Below are positions 44,500-54,157 of a stretch of DNA of 64,000 nt, piece after piece. The notes below the pieces were generated by a model, which saw nothing but the letters and a program-made list of their open reading frames with translations, searched no databases and was not told the origin of the DNA. Within the stretch, counting starts at the first letter, position 1, and each line of letters opens with the position of its first letter. The stretch lies in contig NZ_CP141614.1 of the NCBI RefSeq assembly GCF_035593265.1, positions 2,542,001 through 2,606,000 on the forward strand. The letters are read 5' to 3'. The position numbers and the translations under genes are program-made. This DNA comes from Limnochorda sp. LNt (GTDB taxonomy: Bacteria; Bacillota; Limnochordia; Limnochordales; Geochordaceae).

Positions 44500-46881
44500 T
44501 CACGGCTCACCGTGGGCCCGCGTGGCTCGCGCCGCGAGGGCGGCGTCGAGCGCCCGCTCCAGCACCCAGGCCGCCGGCACCAGCAACGCGCCCGCGGCCG
44601 CCGTCACCCCCGAGTCGTTGGCCACCAAGGCCACGGCCGCACCCAGTGCCGAGGCCTCCAGGGTCACCCGCATGCGGGGATGATCCGTCAGGGCTCGGAG
44701 CAGGCCCCCTGCCGGCAGCCAAAACGCGGCCATCACCACCACCATGGCCGTGAACAGCACGCGGCTGTAGAGGCTGTAGCGCAGGAGCCGCCAGTTGAGG
44801 GCCAGTTTGCGTGCCGCGACGGAGATGACGTAGGCAGGCCCCAGCTCCTGAGCCTTCTGCGCCGTCAGCGCGAGATGGCTCTGCTCGGCCGCCGCGGCGC
44901 CGACGTCGAGGGCCCAGGCGATGCCCACCAGGCAGGCTGCGAGGGCCGCCCCCGTCAGCGCTCTGGCCACCGCCGCTCTCAGACGCGGGCGGGCGTCGGC
45001 GTACCACCCGGCGGCTGCCACCCCGACCCCGGTGGCCATGGCCAGCGAGCCCCCCACGTTGGCACCCAGGTCGGGGGCGGCCACCATCCAGGCCAGTCCC
45101 AGCAAGATGAGGGTCAGCGCCCACGACGCCCTGGGCCAGCGCTCGCCCAGTTCCCCGGCCGCCACCAGGGCCGAGCCCAGGAGCAGCCCCACGTGCTCGT
45201 TGCCGATCCCGTACAGGCGGGCGCCTCCGATGAGGTCGTAACCCATGAAGGAGCGAGCGATGAGGTCGAGGTGCCCGATCACGTCGGCCGCCAGCACCGC
45301 CATCGAGAGAGCGGCGATGACGGCGGCCGCGCTGACGCCCAGGCGGCGTCCGGCTCGCCGGGCCACCCAGGCGACCCCCGCCGCACCAGCGGCGACGGCA
45401 GCCAGCGACCAGGTGGTGCCCCCCCAGCCGGTCGCGGGAGGGACGGCCACCCACGGGTGGAGCAGCACCAGTGGGACGGCCACGGCCCAGGCGAGGGCGA
45501 GGCGTGCCAGGCCCGGCAGCCGGCTCCCGGCCAGGGCGCGCACCCACCCGGATGGTCGCCCCACGCGCAAGGCGGCGGCGAGGGCCAGCCCGGCGGCCAG
45601 GACGAGCACCTGGGCCGTGATGAGGTCGCTCATGACCCGCATCCGCCCGGACCAGACGAGGGCCCGCGCATCGGCCCAATCCCGCAAGGCCTCGACGCTG
45701 GGAGCGGGAGAGCCCAGCACCAGGGGCCGGCCGATCACCCCCGAGGGTACGGGGATCCCGGCCATGCGGGCCAGGGTGGGGGCCAGGTCGATGGCCATCA
45801 CCAGGCCATCTCGCCGGGCCGTGAGCGAGCGCAGGGCCCGGGGTTCCCAGGGCCCGCGCCAGACGATGGCGGACAGGAGCCGGCCGTCACGCCCGTCCAT
45901 CGAGCGCGCGGTGGCTCCCAGCAACAAGAGCGAGCCTCGGCTCCAGTACGGGTCAGCCTGCCACCAGCCCACCAGCTGATCCAGCGCACGGGCCAGCGAC
46001 CGGTGGTGGGACTCCCGCACGGGCGCCGCCATCTCCGGCTCCTCCTGCAGTCGTCGCCAGAGATCGCCGCTGGCCACCACGGCCAGCATCCGGTCGGCGG
46101 TCGTCTCGCGGTCTGCGCCGTCCGCCGCTGCCATGTCTCGCAGGAGTGCGGGCACGCGCTCCCACTGGGTGCGAAGCCCCCCCGGGGCGCTGGGATCCTC
46201 GACGGTCAGGGGCCGGACGGCGCCGATCTCCCCTCGCGTGTCGACCAACAGCAAGCCCGCCGCCGCCAGGGGCGAGGAGCGGCCGGCCCAGGCGGCGACC
46301 GGCGGAAGATCCACGCCTCCCTCGGCCGGAGGGGCCACCCACCGGTCGTCGCCCATCAGGACCACCCGCACGCCCGCCTCACGCAGGCCCTCGCCCAGCC
46401 ATCCCAGGGGAGCGAAGCTCCCGGCCGCCCGGCTCTCCTCCCGCAGCCGGGGGAGGTCCAGGAGCACGCGGGCCCCCGGCGACGGCGGGTACCCGGCCCG
46501 GCGCTCGAAGATGCCAGCCGCCGTCTCCCCGGCGGCGAGGCGGACCGCGCCGGCGCTCTCGATGCGCACGCCCGTGGCAAGGTTCAAGTAGGCCCCTGCG
46601 CCGGCCCGGAAGGGGGACAGGGGGTTGTAGACGGCCCGCGCCGCGCCCTGGATCAGCGCCCGGAGGTGTGGCGTCCGCTCCCCCATCGCGAAGCGATCGA
46701 GCCAGGCCCAGTCGAGACCGTCCAGGATCACCACCATCAGGGGCCAGCCGGCCCGAGCCGACGGCTCGGCCATCTGCACCGGCACGCCCGACCCGACGAC
46801 GAGGGCGAGGGCCACCACGACCCCCAGCCACGGCCGCTTGCGCCCGAGCCGGCGTCCGACCATGCCCGAGCCCCCGTTCAT
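44500..46881 (-). CDS. Alkaline-phosphatase-fold / polytopic membrane protein
   Basis: A 793-residue protein in two parts. After a signal-like helix (about 18-38) comes an extracytoplasmic domain of about 380 residues that begins VVILDGLDWAWLDRF and resembles alkaline-phosphatase-superfamily enzymes; RDGLVMAIDLAPTLARMAGIPVP is the type of segment seen near their C-terminal metal site. The second part (about 420-780) has roughly ten membrane helices. No family was assigned with certainty. It overlaps the GT4 gene upstream by ATGA and is the last gene of the glycan locus, so a role in envelope glycan modification is inferred. Confidence 0.65.
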   Translation of the reverse strand: MNGGSGMVGRRLGRKRPWLGVVVALALVVGSGVPVQMAEPSARAGWPLMVVILDGLDWAWLDRFAMGERTPHLRALIQGAARAVYNPLSPFRAGAGAYLNLATGVRIESAGAVRLAAGETAAGIFERRAGYPPSPGARVLLDLPRLREESRAAGSFAPLGWLGEGLREAGVRVVLMGDDRWVAPPAEGGVDLPPVAAWAGRSSPLAAAGLLLVDTRGEIGAVRPLTVEDPSAPGGLRTQWERVPALLRDMAAADGADRETTADRMLAVVASGDLWRRLQEEPEMAAPVRESHHRSLARALDQLVGWWQADPYWSRGSLLLLGATARSMDGRDGRLLSAIVWRGPWEPRALRSLTARRDGLVMAIDLAPTLARMAGIPVPSGVIGRPLVLGSPAPSVEALRDWADARALVWSGRMRVMSDLITAQVLVLAAGLALAAALRVGRPSGWVRALAGSRLPGLARLALAWAVAVPLVLLHPWVAVPPATGWGGTTWSLAAVAAGAAGVAWVARRAGRRLGVSAAAVIAALSMAVLAADVIGHLDLIARSFMGYDLIGGARLYGIGNEHVGLLLGSALVAAGELGERWPRASWALTLILLGLAWMVAAPDLGANVGGSLAMATGVGVAAAGWYADARPRLRAAVARALTGAALAACLVGIAWALDVGAAAAEQSHLALTAQKAQELGPAYVISVAARKLALNWRLLRYSLYSRVLFTAMVVVMAAFWLPAGGLLRALTDHPRMRVTLEASALGAAVALVANDSGVTAAAGALLVPAAWVLERALDAALAARATRAHGEP

Positions 46882-48017
46882 GACTCCCCCCGTCCGGCCC
46901 CCCTCGCCTCGCGATACAGCGCCAGGGTCTCCTCGGCCATCTCCCGAGCCGTCCGAGCCGTCGCCCGCCGTCGCGCCTGCTCGCCCATGCGCCGACGGAG
47001 CTCGGGCTCACGGGCCAGCCGCTCGAGGGCAGAGGCCAGCCCCTCGGGCGAGGGGTCGACCACCAGGCCCGCTCCCTCGGGGACCACCTCGCGGCTGCCG
47101 GGGCACTCCAGGGCCACGACCGGCAGGCCGAGGGCCATGGCCTCGAGGGCCGAGTAGGAGGCGCCCTCCCGCAGCCATGGCAGCACGGCGGCATCGGCCT
47201 CCATCCAGACCCTGGCTGGCTCCGCCCATCCCAGGAACCGCACCCGGCGCCAGGCGCCCGTCGCACGGGCCCGCGCCTCCAAGTCGGGCCGACACGGGCC
47301 ATCCCCGGCGATCCAGGCCTCCAGCTGCACGGACGCCGGCAGGCGGGCGATGCCATCGATGAGGAGCTCGATGCCCTTGGAGGCGTGCAGGCGCATCACG
47401 CAGGCCACGACCAGCGCACGGCTCCCTGTCCTGCCGTCCCGTCGCGGGCTGGCCTGGCTCCACCACCGGGGATCCAAGGCGTTGGGCACCACGGTCACGG
47501 GCCGGCGGCCGTCCAGCAGATCCTGGGCGAAGCGCCCGAGCGTCTCGGAGACCGCGATGAGCCGGTCCGCCCGTCCGAGGCTCCAGCGCACCATCCGACG
47601 CTGGGCGGCGCTCCAGATGCGACCGGACGGCGCGGGCAGGAAGTTGTGCACCGTCACCACGCGGGCCGCGGCCGAAGGCGGCGTCATGGCCAGCGCCGAG
47701 GCCCATGCCGCCTTGTGGCCGTGGGCGTGCACCACGTGCGGCCGCAAACGCCTGACAGCCCTTCGCAACCTGATGGCGGCGGCGAGATCGGCGCCGGGTC
47801 GCATCCCATCGCGCAGAGGCAGGGGCACGCCCCACGCACAGCGGGCGCCCCCGTCTCCGAGCCGGGCTCGGAGTCGCGCCAGGACCTCGGGGGGCGCGGC
47901 CACCGCCACCTCCACCCCTGCTTCCCGCAGGGCCCCCGTCAGGGCCGCCAGGTGGGTGACCATCCCCCCGGCGGCTTCCCGCATCAGGTGCAAGACTCGC
48001 AGGCGTTCCGGCTCCAT
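46878..48017 (-). CDS. Group 1 (GT4) glycosyltransferase
   Basis: A 379-residue GT-B enzyme. The N-terminal half has HLMREAAGGMVTHLAALT and VVHAHGHKAAWASAL; the C-terminal half has EGASYSALEAMALGLPVVAL, the E-x7-E nucleotide-sugar motif of GT4. GDP-mannose is a likely donor because manC and the mutase are in the same locus; the acceptor is unknown. Confidence 0.87.
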   Translation of the reverse strand: MEPERLRVLHLMREAAGGMVTHLAALTGALREAGVEVAVAAPPEVLARLRARLGDGGARCAWGVPLPLRDGMRPGADLAAAIRLRRAVRRLRPHVVHAHGHKAAWASALAMTPPSAAARVVTVHNFLPAPSGRIWSAAQRRMVRWSLGRADRLIAVSETLGRFAQDLLDGRRPVTVVPNALDPRWWSQASPRRDGRTGSRALVVACVMRLHASKGIELLIDGIARLPASVQLEAWIAGDGPCRPDLEARARATGAWRRVRFLGWAEPARVWMEADAAVLPWLREGASYSALEAMALGLPVVALECPGSREVVPEGAGLVVDPSPEGLASALERLAREPELRRRMGEQARRRATARTAREMAEETLALYREARGAGRGES

Positions 48018-48040
48018 GTGTGCGAAGGGCCGCCTTCTCC

Positions 48041-48070
48041 GGCCGCCCTTAGGGTGTGCGGAGGGCGGCC
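48041..48070 (-). terminator. Hairpin between two glycan genes
   Basis: GGCCGCCCT (48041-48049) pairs with AGGGCGGCC (48062-48070), loop 12 bases. It lies after the barrel-like gene at 48088 and 24 bases before the GT gene start; it could weaken read-through. No U-run. Confidence 0.45.
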
Positions 48071-48087
48071 CCGGCTATGAGCCTCGC

Positions 48088-49233
48088 TCAGGCCATGGCC
48101 CGCGTCCGGGGCAGGGCCGCGCGCCGGCGCGCCTGCTCTACCGCCATGCGCGCCAGCAGGTGGGCCAGGGTCGACTCGGCGCCCTCGTTGGCGTTGACCC
48201 CATCCGGGCCCAAGCCGTCGCGGCAGCCACCCGTGGCCTCGTCGTAGAGCGGCGCGCCCAGCGCGTTGCGCCCGTAGAACCACTCGAGCGCTCGCTCCGC
48301 CTGCGTCAGGTACTCGCCACGCCCGGTGGCCACGTAGAGACTGGCGGCCGCCTCGGCCATGGCGCCTGCGTCGACGGGCTGCTGGTCATAGCGCGCCCTC
48401 GCCTGCCCCCGGACCCACCATCCGCGATTGCCGACCAGGTCCAGGTAGGCCCCGTTCCACAGGTGGTCCCAGAGAAACCGGTAGCTGGCCACGGCCACCT
48501 CCAGGAACGGGCCGTGGCCGGTCACCTCCCACGCCGCCACCAGCGCCTGGGGCAACCGGGCGTTGGCGTACGTCAGCCGGTCCTCGAACCATGGCCACGC
48601 GTCGCGTCGCGTCCGGTGGTAGGCCGAGACCAGGCGCTCGGCCAGCTCCGCGGCCATCTGCTTGAGCGCGCTCGCCGTCACCCCGTCGCCGACGGCCCGC
48701 AGGCGCGCCCGGGGGCTGCGCGCCAGGGCCCGGATCCCCAGCAGGGCGAACGCGACCGGCCGCAGGCCGCTCAGCTTGGGTGCCCACGCCAGGGTGCGCC
48801 CCAGGGCGCGGGCGGCACCCATCCACAGCCCCTCGAGCCCGAGCCCGGCCACCGCCTCCCCCAGCGCCCAGATGGCGCGACCCACCGGGTCGCCGGTGGC
48901 GCGGGCGTCCAGGAAACGGCGGTCCCAGCCGACGTCGTTGTGAAACCACCCGTCCGCGGTCTGGCAGTAGAGGATGAAGCTCAAGTAGCGCACCGCCAGC
49001 TCCAGGCTCTCGGGGTCCCGAGTCGACCGGTGGTGGCGGACGACGGCGACCAGGGCGCGAGCGTTGTCGTCCAGGGTGTAGCCCTCGGAGGCGTTGGGGA
49101 CGGCCCCCAGGGCGTGCTCGACGATGCCAGTGGTGTCGGTGAGGCGCCTCACGTGGGCCAGGCTCCAGCTGGGCCCCATCTGGAGCCCGGCCGCCGGGGC
49201 CGCCCGATGCCGGCGGCGCTCACGGGCCGGCAC
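48088..49233 (-). CDS. (alpha/alpha)6-barrel protein of glycan locus
   Basis: A 381-residue helical protein. Repeated Gly/Trp-rich helix pairs (SEGYTLDDNARALVAVV, TADGWFHNDVGWDRRFLDARATGDPVGRAIWALGEAV, DAWPWFEDRLTYANARLPQALV) match proteins found next to or fused with GT4 enzymes and with mannoside phosphorylases. Activity unknown; a glycosidase- or phosphorylase-like fold is inferred. Its stop is 70 bases before one GT and its start 6 bases after the other. Confidence 0.7.
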   Translation of the reverse strand: MPARERRRHRAAPAAGLQMGPSWSLAHVRRLTDTTGIVEHALGAVPNASEGYTLDDNARALVAVVRHHRSTRDPESLELAVRYLSFILYCQTADGWFHNDVGWDRRFLDARATGDPVGRAIWALGEAVAGLGLEGLWMGAARALGRTLAWAPKLSGLRPVAFALLGIRALARSPRARLRAVGDGVTASALKQMAAELAERLVSAYHRTRRDAWPWFEDRLTYANARLPQALVAAWEVTGHGPFLEVAVASYRFLWDHLWNGAYLDLVGNRGWWVRGQARARYDQQPVDAGAMAEAAASLYVATGRGEYLTQAERALEWFYGRNALGAPLYDEATGGCRDGLGPDGVNANEGAESTLAHLLARMAVEQARRRAALPRTRAMA

Positions 49234-49239
49234 GGCGCC

Positions 49240-50604
49240 TCACCTCCCGGGCTGGGAGTGGGCCTGCGACCAGTCACCCGCGAGGGGCAGGCCCCGGGGC
49301 GTCACCATCTTGGCCGCCCAGGCGGCCGAGGACGCGTCAGGCACGGCCGGCTCCTCCCTGGCCGAGCCGGCCACCCATTCGAAGAGGCGGCCGTAGCGCG
49401 CCCCGACGATCTCCCAGCTCATCGACTGTCCGAAGGCCCGTGCCCGGTGCTCCAGCGTCCGGCGCAGATCCTCGCTCTCCAGCACCCGCAGGACCTCGGC
49501 GGCCAGCGAGGACGGGTCACCGAACCGGCACAACAGCCCCCGTCCTGGCCCGATCAGCTCGCGGGCGTAGCGAAACGGCGTGGAGACCACCGCCTTGCCC
49601 GCGGCCAGGGCGTAACTGAGGGTGCCGCTCACGGCCTGGTCCTCGTTGGGATAGGGCAGGACGTAGACGTCGGCGGCCGCCAGCAGCCAGCCCAGATCCT
49701 CCAGGTCGAGGTAGCGGTCGATGAACTGGACGTTGTGCGCCACGCCCAGCTCCGCCGCCATGCGGATCAGGGACTGCCGGTACGCTTCGCCCGAGAGCTT
49801 GCGGACGTTGGGGTGGGTCTGCCCCGCCACGACGTAGAGGACGTCGGGCTGCCGCCGCGTCACCTGGGGCAGGGCCTGGATGGCTTGCTCGATGCCCTTG
49901 CCCGGGCTGAGCAGGCCGTACGTCAGCAGCACCGGGCGCTGCCCGAAGCCGAGGCGCGCCTTGGCCGCGGCCGAGGGGATGGCCGGGAAGTCGGGCGTCC
50001 CGTGTGGGATGACGAGCACCCGCGCTCGATCGATGCCGTAGACGCGCTCCAACAGGTCCAGGGCCGAGCGCGCCTGCACCACCACTGTGCGGGACCGCGC
50101 TGCCAGCTCCACCAGCAGCTGCCGCTGCTTCTCGTTGGGTCGGCGGAGGATGGTGTGGAGCGTGGTGACGACCGGCAGGCGGGTGGCCCGCAGCAGGTGC
50201 GTCACGACGTACTCTCCGTGGTCGCCGCCGAAGATGCCGTACTCGTGCTGGACGCTGATGACCTCGTACCCCTGGCGCTCCGCCCAGGCCGCGGCCGCCG
50301 CGTAACTGTCGGCGTCCTCCAGGGTCACGCTCAGGACCTGGTCCACCTCGCCCGCGTACGGCGGTCGCCGCTCCATCCGCTCCCACGACGGATCGACGGC
50401 GATGACGCCGGTGCGGGCAGCGGGCACCGCTCGCTTGAGCGAGCGGGCCAGGTCGGCCGTGAAGGAGGCGATGCCGCAGCGCCGAGGCGGAAAGGAGCTG
50501 ACGAAGGCCACCCGGGGGCCGGTGCGCCACGACGGCAAGCCCATGCGCCGCGGGCGCCCCCGCAGGCCACCGAGCCCCTCCAAGCCGTCTTGATGCTCAA
50601 GCAT
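49240..50604 (-). CDS. Group 1 (GT4) glycosyltransferase
   Basis: A 454-residue GT-B enzyme, larger than its neighbour. It has RVAFVSSFPPRRCGIASFTADLA at the start, ISVQHEYGIFGGDHGEYV, LTYGLLSPGKGIEQAIQALP and, at the donor site, VLPYPNEDQAVSGTLSYALAAGKAVVSTPF. The start codon at 50604 overlaps the mutase stop by a few bases. Donor probably GDP-mannose by linkage. Confidence 0.86.
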   Translation of the reverse strand: MLEHQDGLEGLGGLRGRPRRMGLPSWRTGPRVAFVSSFPPRRCGIASFTADLARSLKRAVPAARTGVIAVDPSWERMERRPPYAGEVDQVLSVTLEDADSYAAAAAWAERQGYEVISVQHEYGIFGGDHGEYVVTHLLRATRLPVVTTLHTILRRPNEKQRQLLVELAARSRTVVVQARSALDLLERVYGIDRARVLVIPHGTPDFPAIPSAAAKARLGFGQRPVLLTYGLLSPGKGIEQAIQALPQVTRRQPDVLYVVAGQTHPNVRKLSGEAYRQSLIRMAAELGVAHNVQFIDRYLDLEDLGWLLAAADVYVLPYPNEDQAVSGTLSYALAAGKAVVSTPFRYARELIGPGRGLLCRFGDPSSLAAEVLRVLESEDLRRTLEHRARAFGQSMSWEIVGARYGRLFEWVAGSAREEPAVPDASSAAWAAKMVTPRGLPLAGDWSQAHSQPGR

Positions 50605-52060
50605 GGCTGCGCTCACCTGCCGACACGTGCTCGACCCACTGCCGGCCGGTGCCGAGCAGGGCATTCAGGCGCTCGGGACGGTCCGCCTCGGCGTAGACCC
50701 GCACCAGAGGCTCCGTGCCCGAGGGCCGCACCATCAGCCAGGAGCCGTCTTCGAGCACGAACTTGAAGCCATCCACACGCTTCACTTCCTTGACGGGTAC
50801 ATCGGCGATCCGGTCGGGGGCGTGCCCGGCCAGCCGTTGCACCAGCGCTTGGCGCCGGGATTCGTCGAAGTGCAGGTCGAGCCGTCCGTACAGGTGGGGC
50901 CCCACCCGCCGGACGAGCTCCTGCAACAGGCCCGACACCGGCAGCCGAGTGGTGGCCATCAGCTCGGCCATGATGAGGGCGCTGAGGATGCCGTCGCGCT
51001 CGGGGATGTGGCCTCGTATGCCGATCCCGCCGCTCTCCTCGCCCCCGACGAGCACGTCGCCCTCCAGCATCCTCGCGCAGACGTACTTGAAGCCGACGGG
51101 CGTCTCCACCAGCGGAAGACCGTATCGTCGGGCGAGCCGGTCAATCATGGAGGTGGTGGAGACGGTCTTGACGACCTCGCCCTTGAGCCCGCGGTGCTCC
51201 ACGAGGTGCATCAAGACGAGGGAGAAGATCTGGTGTGCGTTGACGAACCCTCCCGTCTCGTCGACCATGCCGATCCGGTCACCGTCACCGTCCACCGCGA
51301 AGCCGGCCTGCCAGCCCCCGTCTCGCACGCAGGACTTGAGCGGCCCCAAGTTGGGCTCGATGGGCTCGGGATTGAGCCCCCCGAAGCCAGGGTTGGCCTC
51401 CTCCCGGACGGCCACCAGGCGCCGCACGCCGGCCCTCCTGAGGGCCTCTGCCAGCACGCCCCTGGCGGCCCCGTGCATGGGGTCGACCGCCACCGCCAGG
51501 TCGGCCCGGGCGATGGCCTCCATGTCCACCAGGCCCAAGAGGCGGCGCAGGTACGGCTCGATGGGGTCGCACCACTCCACCAGCCCGGCCGCGACCGCAT
51601 CCTCGAGGGGACGCCACGGGACGTCGGCCCCGTCCTCCTCCAGGATCGCATTGGCCTCCCGCTCGATGGGCGCCGTGATGGCCTCGGTGGCGGAGCCCCC
51701 GTAGGGAGGCTTGAACTTGAGCCCGTTGAACTCGGGCGGGTTGTGGCTGGCCGTCACGACGATGCCGCCCCCGAGGCCCCGCTCCACCACGGCCGCCGCG
51801 AGCGCGGGCGTGGGAGTCTCGCGCCGGGTGAGCAGCACCGGGATGCCGGCCCCCGCCAGCACCTCCGCCACGGTCCGGGCGAACCGCCCCGACAGGAACC
51901 GCCCGTCGTAGCCCACCCCGACCCCTCGAGAGGCCAGCCCCTGCTGGTGGAGGTAGCGGGCCATGGCCGCGGCCACGACCCGTACCCGCTCGAAGGTGAA
52001 GCCGTCCGCGATGACGTCTCGCCAGCCGTCGGTACCGAACCGGATCGGACGCGATGGCAC
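50597..52060 (-). CDS. Phosphomannomutase / phosphoglucomutase
   Basis: A 487-residue alpha-D-phosphohexomutase. The phosphoserine loop TASHNPPEFNG, metal loop DGDGDRIGM, sugar loop GGEESGG and phosphate loop RPSGTEP are all present. With the adjacent ManC it would make GDP-mannose from mannose-6-phosphate. GTG at 52060 is chosen because homology starts at IRFGTDGWRD and a promoter candidate covers the earlier ATG at 52204. Confidence 0.92.
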   Translation of the reverse strand: MPSRPIRFGTDGWRDVIADGFTFERVRVVAAAMARYLHQQGLASRGVGVGYDGRFLSGRFARTVAEVLAGAGIPVLLTRRETPTPALAAAVVERGLGGGIVVTASHNPPEFNGLKFKPPYGGSATEAITAPIEREANAILEEDGADVPWRPLEDAVAAGLVEWCDPIEPYLRRLLGLVDMEAIARADLAVAVDPMHGAARGVLAEALRRAGVRRLVAVREEANPGFGGLNPEPIEPNLGPLKSCVRDGGWQAGFAVDGDGDRIGMVDETGGFVNAHQIFSLVLMHLVEHRGLKGEVVKTVSTTSMIDRLARRYGLPLVETPVGFKYVCARMLEGDVLVGGEESGGIGIRGHIPERDGILSALIMAELMATTRLPVSGLLQELVRRVGPHLYGRLDLHFDESRRQALVQRLAGHAPDRIADVPVKEVKRVDGFKFVLEDGSWLMVRPSGTEPLVRVYAEADRPERLNALLGTGRQWVEHVSAGERSHA

Positions 52061-52175
52061 CCTCCCGATGGTCCATCCCCCCAACCCTCTCGTGACCGCC
52101 GCATCCGGCGCGTTGGCGTGCACGGCGCCGTGCGACCCACAAGGCGACGGCGGATCGACCCGGGTGACCTTTCCT

Positions 52176-52204
52176 ATCTTGCCACGATCGGCCGGGGGGC
52201 TCAA
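52176..52204 (-). promoter_or_regulatory. Possible promoter of mutase and glycan genes
   Basis: The minus strand reads TTGAGC, 17 bases, CAAGAT with TGG before the -10. Weak. It would give a start near 52169, so an ATG at 52204 could not be used on that transcript. Confidence 0.35.
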
Positions 52205-52231
52205 GGCGGGGCGGGCGGGCCCCGGGCGTGG

Positions 52232-53332
52232 CTACAGGTACTCCTGGTGACCGAGGGACCGCAGTCTGGCGAGAAGCGCTCGGATATCCTGGGCCCGCTC
52301 CTTGGCACATACCAGTGTCACGTCTTCAGTCTCCACGATCACCAGGTCCCGCACCCCGAGAGTCGCTACCAGTTTTGGCTGCGCCCCATCGACGACGACG
52401 ATGCACTGGCTGGTGTCGATCCCGACGTGGCGGGCCCCCCGGACCACGTTGCCTGCCTCGTCGGGGGCGAACAGCCGCTCGAAGGCAGGCCAGCTCCCGG
52501 CATCGTCCCAGCCGAAGTCGGCCGGGATCACCACGATCCCCTCGGCCCTCTCCAGGACGCCGTAGTCGATGGAGACCGACTCGAGCCCGTCGAAGACCGA
52601 TCGGGCCACGGCCCCCTCGTCGGGCCGGCCCCAGGCTCGAGCGACGCGCTCGAGCCCCTCGTGGAGGGCGGGCATGTGCCGGGCCAGCGCCTCGCGGATG
52701 GCGCGCACCCGCCAGACGAACATCCCGCTGTTCCACAGGTGCCTCCCGTCGGCGACGTAGCGGCGCGCCAGGGTCAGATCCGGCTTCTCCACGAAGCGCT
52801 GCACCTGGTAGACGTCGTACCCGAGCGCCTTGCCCACGGGCTGCCCCAGTTCGATGTAGCCGTAGCCGGTCTCGGGCCGGGTCGGCCACAGCCCGATGGT
52901 GACCAGGGCGTGCGTCTCGGCAGCCTCGGCCGCCGCCCTCATCACCCGGCGAAAGGCTTCGGCGTCTCGCACCACGTGGTCGGCGGGCAGCACGACCATG
53001 ATGGGATCCGACCCCCACGGACCCGGCGTCCTCTCGAGGTGGACCGCGGCCAGCCCGATACAGGCCGCCGTGTTGCGACCGGCAGGCTCCACCAGGATGT
53101 TGGCCTCGGGCAGCTCGGGGAGCTGGGCCCGGATGGAGGCGACGTACTCCCGCCCCGTCACCACCAGCACCCGCTGGGGATCGACCAGCGGCAGCACCCG
53201 CTCCACGGCCTGCTGGATCAGGCTGCGAGAGCCGTCGAGGTTGAGCAGCTGCTTGGGCCTGGCACGGCGGCTCAACGGCCAGAACCGCTCGCCGCGCCCC
53301 CCCGCCATGATGACCGCCACCAGCGGCGCCAC
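52232..53332 (-). CDS. manC: Mannose-1-phosphate guanylyltransferase
   Basis: A 366-residue nucleotidyltransferase. MAGGRGERFWPLSRRARPKQLL is the nucleotide-binding motif, VEPAGRNTAACI and VLPADHVV the substrate loops, and FVEKPD the following conserved site. It makes GDP-mannose. GTG start at 53332 has GAGGAGGTG upstream. It lacks the phosphomannose isomerase domain. Follows the SAM hydrolase by 15 bases. Confidence 0.93.
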   Translation of the reverse strand: MAPLVAVIMAGGRGERFWPLSRRARPKQLLNLDGSRSLIQQAVERVLPLVDPQRVLVVTGREYVASIRAQLPELPEANILVEPAGRNTAACIGLAAVHLERTPGPWGSDPIMVVLPADHVVRDAEAFRRVMRAAAEAAETHALVTIGLWPTRPETGYGYIELGQPVGKALGYDVYQVQRFVEKPDLTLARRYVADGRHLWNSGMFVWRVRAIREALARHMPALHEGLERVARAWGRPDEGAVARSVFDGLESVSIDYGVLERAEGIVVIPADFGWDDAGSWPAFERLFAPDEAGNVVRGARHVGIDTSQCIVVVDGAQPKLVATLGVRDLVIVETEDVTLVCAKERAQDIRALLARLRSLGHQEYL

Positions 53333-53347
53333 GAGCCCATCACCTCC

Positions 53348-54157
53348 TCACGAGAATCGAAAGATCAGCCGATCCCCGCTGCGGGCTCCCAGCACCTCAG
53401 CAGCCGAGCCGGCGACCTGGGAGACCTCCAGGGTGCCGGCTGAGCCCACCAGCACCACCAGCGCACCGGCCGGCGCATCGGCATAGGTACGCACCCACCG
53501 CGCCGTGACCGGCGACCCGACCCGGCGCCACCGGCCCTCCGACCGCCGCAGCAACGCCACCGTCACCGGCCGACCCGGCCGCCTCTCCCCGGGCGGCGGA
53601 GGGGCGGGCGTCACCAGGTTGCCGAAGGCGTCGACCCGCACCACTTCGCCTCGCCGGCCCGTCCAATAGAATCGCAGCGGCACCAAGGGCGCCCGGCGGG
53701 CCTCTCCCAGCGACTCCAGGGGCTCCCCGGCCGCCCATCGGCCCGCGGCCGGGGCGAAGACGTCCCGGCCGTGGAAGGTGTTGGAGGCCCCAGAGGGTAC
53801 AGAGAGGTTTACGATGCGAAGCGCGCCGTCATCCTCCACCGCCGGGAAGAGAAGGCCGTTGTCCGGGCCGACCCATCGGTAGTGCCGGCTCTCGACGGCC
53901 ACCGCCGCCCGCTCGGTGCCCACCCCGGGGTCCACCACGGCCACGAAGAGGGTGCCCGGGGGGAAGTAGCGGTACGTCGTCCGGAGGATCCAGGCCCCCT
54001 CCCGCACGTCCTGGGGCCTGACGGTGTGGCAGAGGTCTACGATGCGGGCGTCCTCCCAGAGGGAGGCGATGACCCCCTTGAGGACGCCCGCGTACTCACT
54101 CAGCCCGAAGTCGGTCAGCAGCGCGACCAGCGGCACCGGCTCCGGCGGCACGCCCAT
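53348..54157 (-). CDS. SAM hydroxide adenosyltransferase (DUF62)
   Basis: A 269-residue enzyme of the fluorinase/chlorinase family, in which most members hydrolyse SAM to adenosine and methionine. VALLTDFGLSEYAGVLKGVI opens the protein, VVDPGVGTERAAV and VGPDNGLLFPAV are conserved, and RVDAFGNLVTP starts the C-terminal beta-barrel. The first 62 bases overlap the sdhB 3' end. Presence between sdh and GDP-mannose genes is without obvious meaning. Confidence 0.9.
   Translation of the reverse strand: MGVPPEPVPLVALLTDFGLSEYAGVLKGVIASLWEDARIVDLCHTVRPQDVREGAWILRTTYRYFPPGTLFVAVVDPGVGTERAAVAVESRHYRWVGPDNGLLFPAVEDDGALRIVNLSVPSGASNTFHGRDVFAPAAGRWAAGEPLESLGEARRAPLVPLRFYWTGRRGEVVRVDAFGNLVTPAPPPPGERRPGRPVTVALLRRSEGRWRRVGSPVTARWVRTYADAPAGALVVLVGSAGTLEVSQVAGSAAEVLGARSGDRLIFRFS

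Follow-up and report, generated by a model that had tools for sequence, protein, structure and literature searches.

The closest described system is a gene cluster of Thermoanaerobacter sp. X-514 (Teth514_1785 to 1789). Besides two characterised 1,2-beta-mannoside phosphorylases, it encodes ManC, a hypothetical protein, and a GT4 glycosyltransferase with the annotation GDP-mannose alpha-mannosyltransferase (PMC4264767). A salvage role was proposed for the cluster, without settling where the oligomannan comes from in nature (PMC4264767). The literature searched yielded no further paper on this gene set. In Leishmania, the intracellular beta-1,2-mannan mannogen is turned over via mannose 1-phosphate by GT108 dual transferase-phosphorylases, which have a GH130-like fold and a similar mechanism (PMC8950772).

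The window, namely the whole stretch of 64,000 nucleotides that was analysed, belongs to a genome of 3.02 Mb on a single contig. It contains a run of seven genes, listed here from the first gene onwards.

53348-54157, minus strand: SAM hydroxide adenosyltransferase (SAM hydrolase) gene, the first gene of the run (Pfam SAM_HAT_N, 1e-50).
52232-53332, minus strand: manC, mannose-1-phosphate guanylyltransferase, 366 aa (Pfam NTP_transferase and ManC_GMP_beta-helix).
50597-52204, minus strand: phosphohexomutase, presumed phosphomannomutase (PGM_PMM I-IV).
49240-50664, minus strand: GT4a, a GT-B glycosyltransferase (Pfam GT4 models, family alignment, fold of a fused homologue).
48088-49233, minus strand: (alpha/alpha)6 barrel protein, hereinafter the barrel (model, fold search, conservation over 78 sequences).
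48018-48087, minus strand: gap that separates module 1 from module 2 and in which a strong hairpin is predicted.
46878-48017, minus strand: GT4b, an ordinary GT4 glycosyltransferase and the first gene of module 2 (Pfam; EX7E kept).
44500-46881, minus strand: polytopic membrane protein whose N-terminal part is degenerate and alkaline-phosphatase-like (alignment, hydropathy).

A preliminary description of this DNA had proposed that manC, the phosphohexomutase, GT4a, the barrel, and GT4b lie on one strand, and profile matches and the barrel model agree with that layout, in which the genes are tightly spaced. The membrane protein, counted in the same set, is on the same strand but lies at 44500-46881, outside the interval 46878-53332 that had been assigned to the locus. 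The junction sequence points to the ATG at 50604 as the likely start of GT4a; it overlaps the stop codon of the phosphohexomutase gene. GT4a and the barrel are separated by 6 bases, and the overlap between GT4b and the membrane protein is 4 bp. The only larger gap in the run, of 70 bases, is between the barrel and GT4b.

ManC matches TIGR01479 (6e-92, under the curated cut-off of that model) and is without an isomerase domain. The top NCBIfam match of the phosphohexomutase, which is one of four PGM/PMM copies in the genome, is Arch_GlmM, also under cut-off. A dual PGI/PMI-type gene elsewhere in the genome completes the GDP-mannose route. Another PGM/PMM gene elsewhere in the genome adjoins an 883-residue frame with a further GT4 domain (G000:C1:910625-913239).

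Comparison with relatives defines two modules rather than one pathway: module 1 comprises GT4a and the barrel with the GDP-mannose genes, and module 2 comprises GT4b and the membrane protein. Three other genomes of the same family (L024, L025, and L026) share the seven-gene order from the SAM hydroxide adenosyltransferase to the membrane protein, each with the SAM hydroxide adenosyltransferase directly upstream of manC, so the gene set of the locus is not a product of chance. Outside the family, the 70-base gap is where the gene order splits. In the rest of the order, and in one class member (G020), GT4a and the barrel accompany manC, and sometimes a mutase, but GT4b and the membrane protein are not with them. 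Of the 73 genomes of the class, 64 have the membrane protein, and GT4b directly precedes it with no mannose genes around in 4 of the 11 loci sampled (L150, L153, L155, and L156), which represent several families. Because GT4b and the membrane protein occur apart from the mannose genes, we reject the reading of the six genes as a single pathway. Scattering in relatives, named beforehand as evidence against the proposed reading of the locus, is thus seen for GT4b and the membrane protein but not for manC, GT4a, and the barrel.

The hairpin in the gap has a predicted energy of −48.3 kcal/mol and a z-score of −3.06 in the window but of +1.4 in the closest relative; since it is not clearly conserved, a terminator between the modules is rejected. 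GT4b matches the GT4 profiles and retains EX7E (EGASYSALE). For the membrane protein, no Pfam or other curated family model reaches its threshold or comes near its cut-off. Its membrane half is well conserved, including the motifs GARxYGIGNE and NDSG, while in the alignment the alkaline-phosphatase-like N-terminal start decays in relatives, the DG motif being present only in the window and the nearest relative.

A search of 84,980 species genomes gave at least 498 relatives of the barrel, of which the best 80 were kept as loci; they come from bacteria and archaea of many phyla, and the domain ranges from Nomurabacteria to methanogenic archaea. Among these best 80 of at least 498, GT4a is immediately upstream of the barrel in 75, as one open frame in 51 and as an adjacent gene in 24. 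The remaining five include contig-edge cases and three orphan barrels (L050, L054, and L101). The fused proteins are mostly about 730–790 residues long. GT4a and the barrel are therefore one unit, usually a single protein, and the window contains its split form. The earlier picture of two GT4 enzymes around a barrel holds as the layout of this GDP-mannose locus but not as a natural unit, because GT4a and the barrel are usually one protein. In an Elusimicrobia assembly, the orphan barrel (L101:2212-3261) adjoins sugar ABC importer genes, with no GT4a nearby, and may reveal a stand-alone role of the barrel.

An annotated plasmid operon of Sphingomonas contains manC, manA, a GT4-barrel fusion, GH130, and phosphomannomutase, bearing out the earlier statement that similar GT4 and barrel sets elsewhere carry GH130. 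Shorter versions are present on annotated plasmids of Devosia, Sinorhizobium, Rhizobium, and Ilyobacter. GDP-mannose genes adjoin the GT4a-barrel unit in the window, in Sphingomonas, and in other Bacillota. They are found within 10 kb of the unit in 21 of the best 80 of at least 498 loci, many of which are on short contigs, so linkage does not fix the donor everywhere. A second GT4 recurs beside GH130 in many GT4a-barrel loci (L106:6532-7551, and for example L057, L088, L103, and L113). It is 60–65% identical to an Ilyobacter gene that keeps EX7E, and might belong to the system as a third standard component.

The model of the barrel (pLDDT 94, pTM 0.92) has an (alpha/alpha)6 fold, and together with the fold search it confirms what had been suggested from the sequence. 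The domain, of about 350 residues, is in no curated family. Its top match by both sequence and fold is YPO2471 (PDB 7tem; 1.8e-24 by profile, TM 0.71), with which it has the DDxARA and NxGAES motifs in common. Unlike the barrel, YPO2471 is named an uncharacterised exported protein and has no glycosyltransferase domain in the solved chain; a literature search for YPO2471 found no paper. The (alpha/alpha)6 fold is also shared with AGE-type 2-epimerases and mannose isomerases (TM 0.6–0.7). Across 78 sequences, D33, D56, R59, R119, Q285, D339, and E353 are invariant, whereas no histidine is invariant or, beyond residue 40, even conserved, as judged by alignment columns, not superposition. AGE-type epimerases have a catalytic histidine pair, and the assignment of the barrel to them is weakened accordingly. 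Assignment as a GH76 mannanase fails on a weak local match (19.7 against a cut-off of 25.9 bits), and the GH127 match is also below the Pfam cut-off (18.9 against 24.9 bits). The invariant Asp, Arg, Gln, and Glu residues in the absence of an invariant histidine suggest that the barrel has an active, sugar-handling site but is probably not an epimerase.

GT4a matches Glycos_transf_1 (6e-23) and the GT4 sequence profiles. As judged on a fused homologue, it has a GT-B fold nearest to MshA, HepE, PimB', and PimA. In the model of the fused protein the individual domains are good (pLDDT 90.7), but the pTM of 0.56 and a disordered linker lead us to reject a fixed GT4-barrel interface and to claim no orientation between the two parts. 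PimA and PimB', both GDP-mannose GT4 enzymes with a GT-B fold, are similar to GT4a in the C-terminal domain, but the EX7E glutamates that characterise retaining GT4 enzymes are not conserved in GT4a. At the ungapped EX7E positions of the donor loop, GT4a has an invariant Q343 and, in about 90% of sequences, Y351; among 71 sequences no position in the loop is a conserved glutamate, so the EX7E motif is absent. GT4 enzymes normally retain configuration, and GH130 acts on beta-mannosides; GT4a would thus either be inverting or make only a primer. We hypothesise from these alignments that GT4a may have become an inverting enzyme after loss of EX7E. Neither GT4a nor the barrel has a membrane segment by hydropathy.

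GH130 had been reported as missing. It is indeed absent from the locus, but the genome has a single GH130 gene, beside a transposase and about 250 kb away. The encoded protein matches PF04041 (3e-53), and matches the beta-1,2-mannobiose phosphorylase Lin0857 of Listeria over its full length (3e-98). Its score (431 of 550 bits) is below the NCBIfam equivalog cut-off, and it is distant from the mannosyl-glucose type. The host genome thus contains, like that of Thermoanaerobacter, a predicted GH130 beta-1,2-mannoside phosphorylase gene, although in Thermoanaerobacter that gene is linked and in the host the set does not form one cluster. In L064, from a genus related to Thermoanaerobacter, a manC-type gene, GT4a, and the barrel follow each other in matching order, and by analogy the hypothetical protein Teth514_1785 is probably the barrel. 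The system is widespread but little studied, and the locus represents a split and dispersed form of it.

Linkage to GH130 is not required, since in some carriers the barrel and GH130 are on different contigs. GH130 is within 10 kb of the barrel in 41 of the best 80 of at least 498 loci, and is somewhere in the genome in all 50 barrel-bearing genomes checked, even in an assembly of 0.4 Mb. In a sample of 121 genomes from a phylum other than the host's, GH130 is present in 26 of 26 genomes with barrel relatives versus 7 of 95 without (Fisher p 2e-20, relatedness ignored), or in 14 of 14 versus 19 of 107 when only full-length barrels are counted. In a sample from a second such phylum, the counts are 8 of 8 versus 18 of 110 (Fisher p 2e-6, relatedness ignored). 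With both phyla pooled, GH130 accompanies the barrel in 34 of 34 genomes and occurs in 25 of 205 barrel-free genomes; no barrel genome without GH130 was found in either sample. These p-values are too small, because the tests ignore relatedness. All 14 searched genomes of the host's order carry GH130. The link is weaker in the host's class (10 of 11 barrel genomes versus 25 of 50 barrel-free ones), in which G020 has the barrel and no detected GH130. At L107:4790-8389 (minus strand), a protein of about 1,200 residues has GH130 at its C-terminus, and similar GH130-ended frames are present in G076, G114, G115, G118, G119, G120, and G122. In the L107 protein, neither a Pfam family nor a PDB chain matches the first about 880 residues.

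For the GT4a-barrel system we infer a donor, a linkage, a barrel activity, and a physiological role as follows. The near PDB matches of GT4a include PimB' and PimA, and the manC, mutase, and PGI/PMI genes are in the locus or the genome. The PGI/PMI-type enzyme, the mutase, and ManC would supply GDP-mannose, the latter two starting from mannose 6-phosphate. GT4a would transfer mannose from GDP-mannose to a cytoplasmic acceptor, and the barrel would process or position the product. The unlinked GH130 would phosphorolyse the mannoside, and the mannose 1-phosphate released could be reused by ManC or the mutase. Such a scheme would resemble the Leishmania mannogen cycle, for which no GT4-barrel protein is described (PMC8950772); transfer and phosphorolysis would reside in separate proteins, whereas the GT108 enzymes are dual. 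A soluble beta-mannoside inside the cell is the most likely product, probably a 1,2-linked oligomannose serving as reserve or protectant; its solubility is suggested by the absence of membrane segments in GT4a and the barrel. GT4b and the membrane protein would be a second, separately distributed module, downstream in the host's family. We give about an even chance to the core of this proposal, that a GDP-mannose synthesis operon feeds GT4a-barrel and that the intracellular mannoside made is recycled by GH130. Counting against it are the retention of configuration usual among GT4 enzymes, the small share of loci with GDP-mannose genes close by, the barrel of G020, the frequency of GH130 in barrel-free genomes of the host's class, and the position of the host's GH130 outside the operon.

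A stronger form, a prokaryote-wide mannogen-like cycle in which GT4a is an inverting GT-B enzyme making beta-mannosides from GDP-mannose, seems unlikely to us at present.

Under the salvage reading, which follows Chiku et al. 2014, GH130 would make mannose 1-phosphate from imported beta-mannosides as a source of GDP-mannose, and GT4a-barrel would be an ordinary alpha-mannosyltransferase that draws on it for an unrelated glycan. Salvage was proposed for Thermoanaerobacter, whose cluster includes an ABC importer (PMC4264767), and the orphan barrel beside a sugar importer in L101 is consistent with it. However, barrel and GH130 co-occur near-perfectly even where the genes are unlinked, and in the annotated plasmid operons the unit has manC, manA, and PMM as neighbours and no sugar importer beside it. 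We regard salvage as improbable.

Lower chances go to the remaining two readings. GT4a-barrel might make a short compatible solute, such as mannosyl-glycerate or a mannosyl-hexose, that GH130 recycles. Going by PDB names, disaccharides such as mannosyl-glucose are substrates of some GH130 members, and no polymer export genes were recognised in the run, but the GH130 of the genome is closest to Lin0857 and far from the mannosyl-glucose type, which makes this quite doubtful. Equally doubtful is the new envelope glycan of the preliminary description, a surface mannan or glycoconjugate built by both GT4 enzymes and handled by the membrane protein: although the genes are co-directional and keep their seven-gene order in one family, other families have GT4b and the membrane protein as a separable pair with no mannose genes, GT4a-barrel occurs without them across phyla, and the run contains no recognised polymerase, flippase, or export gene, so that the envelope reading draws on a merely neighbouring module.

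In the synthesis and recycling reading, a domain of about 350 residues without a curated family name becomes part of a mannoside cycle; in most cases it is joined to a glycosyltransferase or adjoins one, and the genomes that have it almost always carry GH130. GT4a-barrel is a concrete candidate maker of the bacterial 1,2-beta-mannosides that are substrates of many GH130 enzymes. The proposal reinterprets the Thermoanaerobacter cluster, read as salvage in PMC4264767, in terms of synthesis and recycling. The co-occurrence of GT4a-barrel and GH130 hints at a widespread, undescribed route that builds and recycles a mannose compound inside cells; should this hold, a cycle parallel to glycogen, with a mannose compound as reserve or protectant, would exist in bacteria and archaea.
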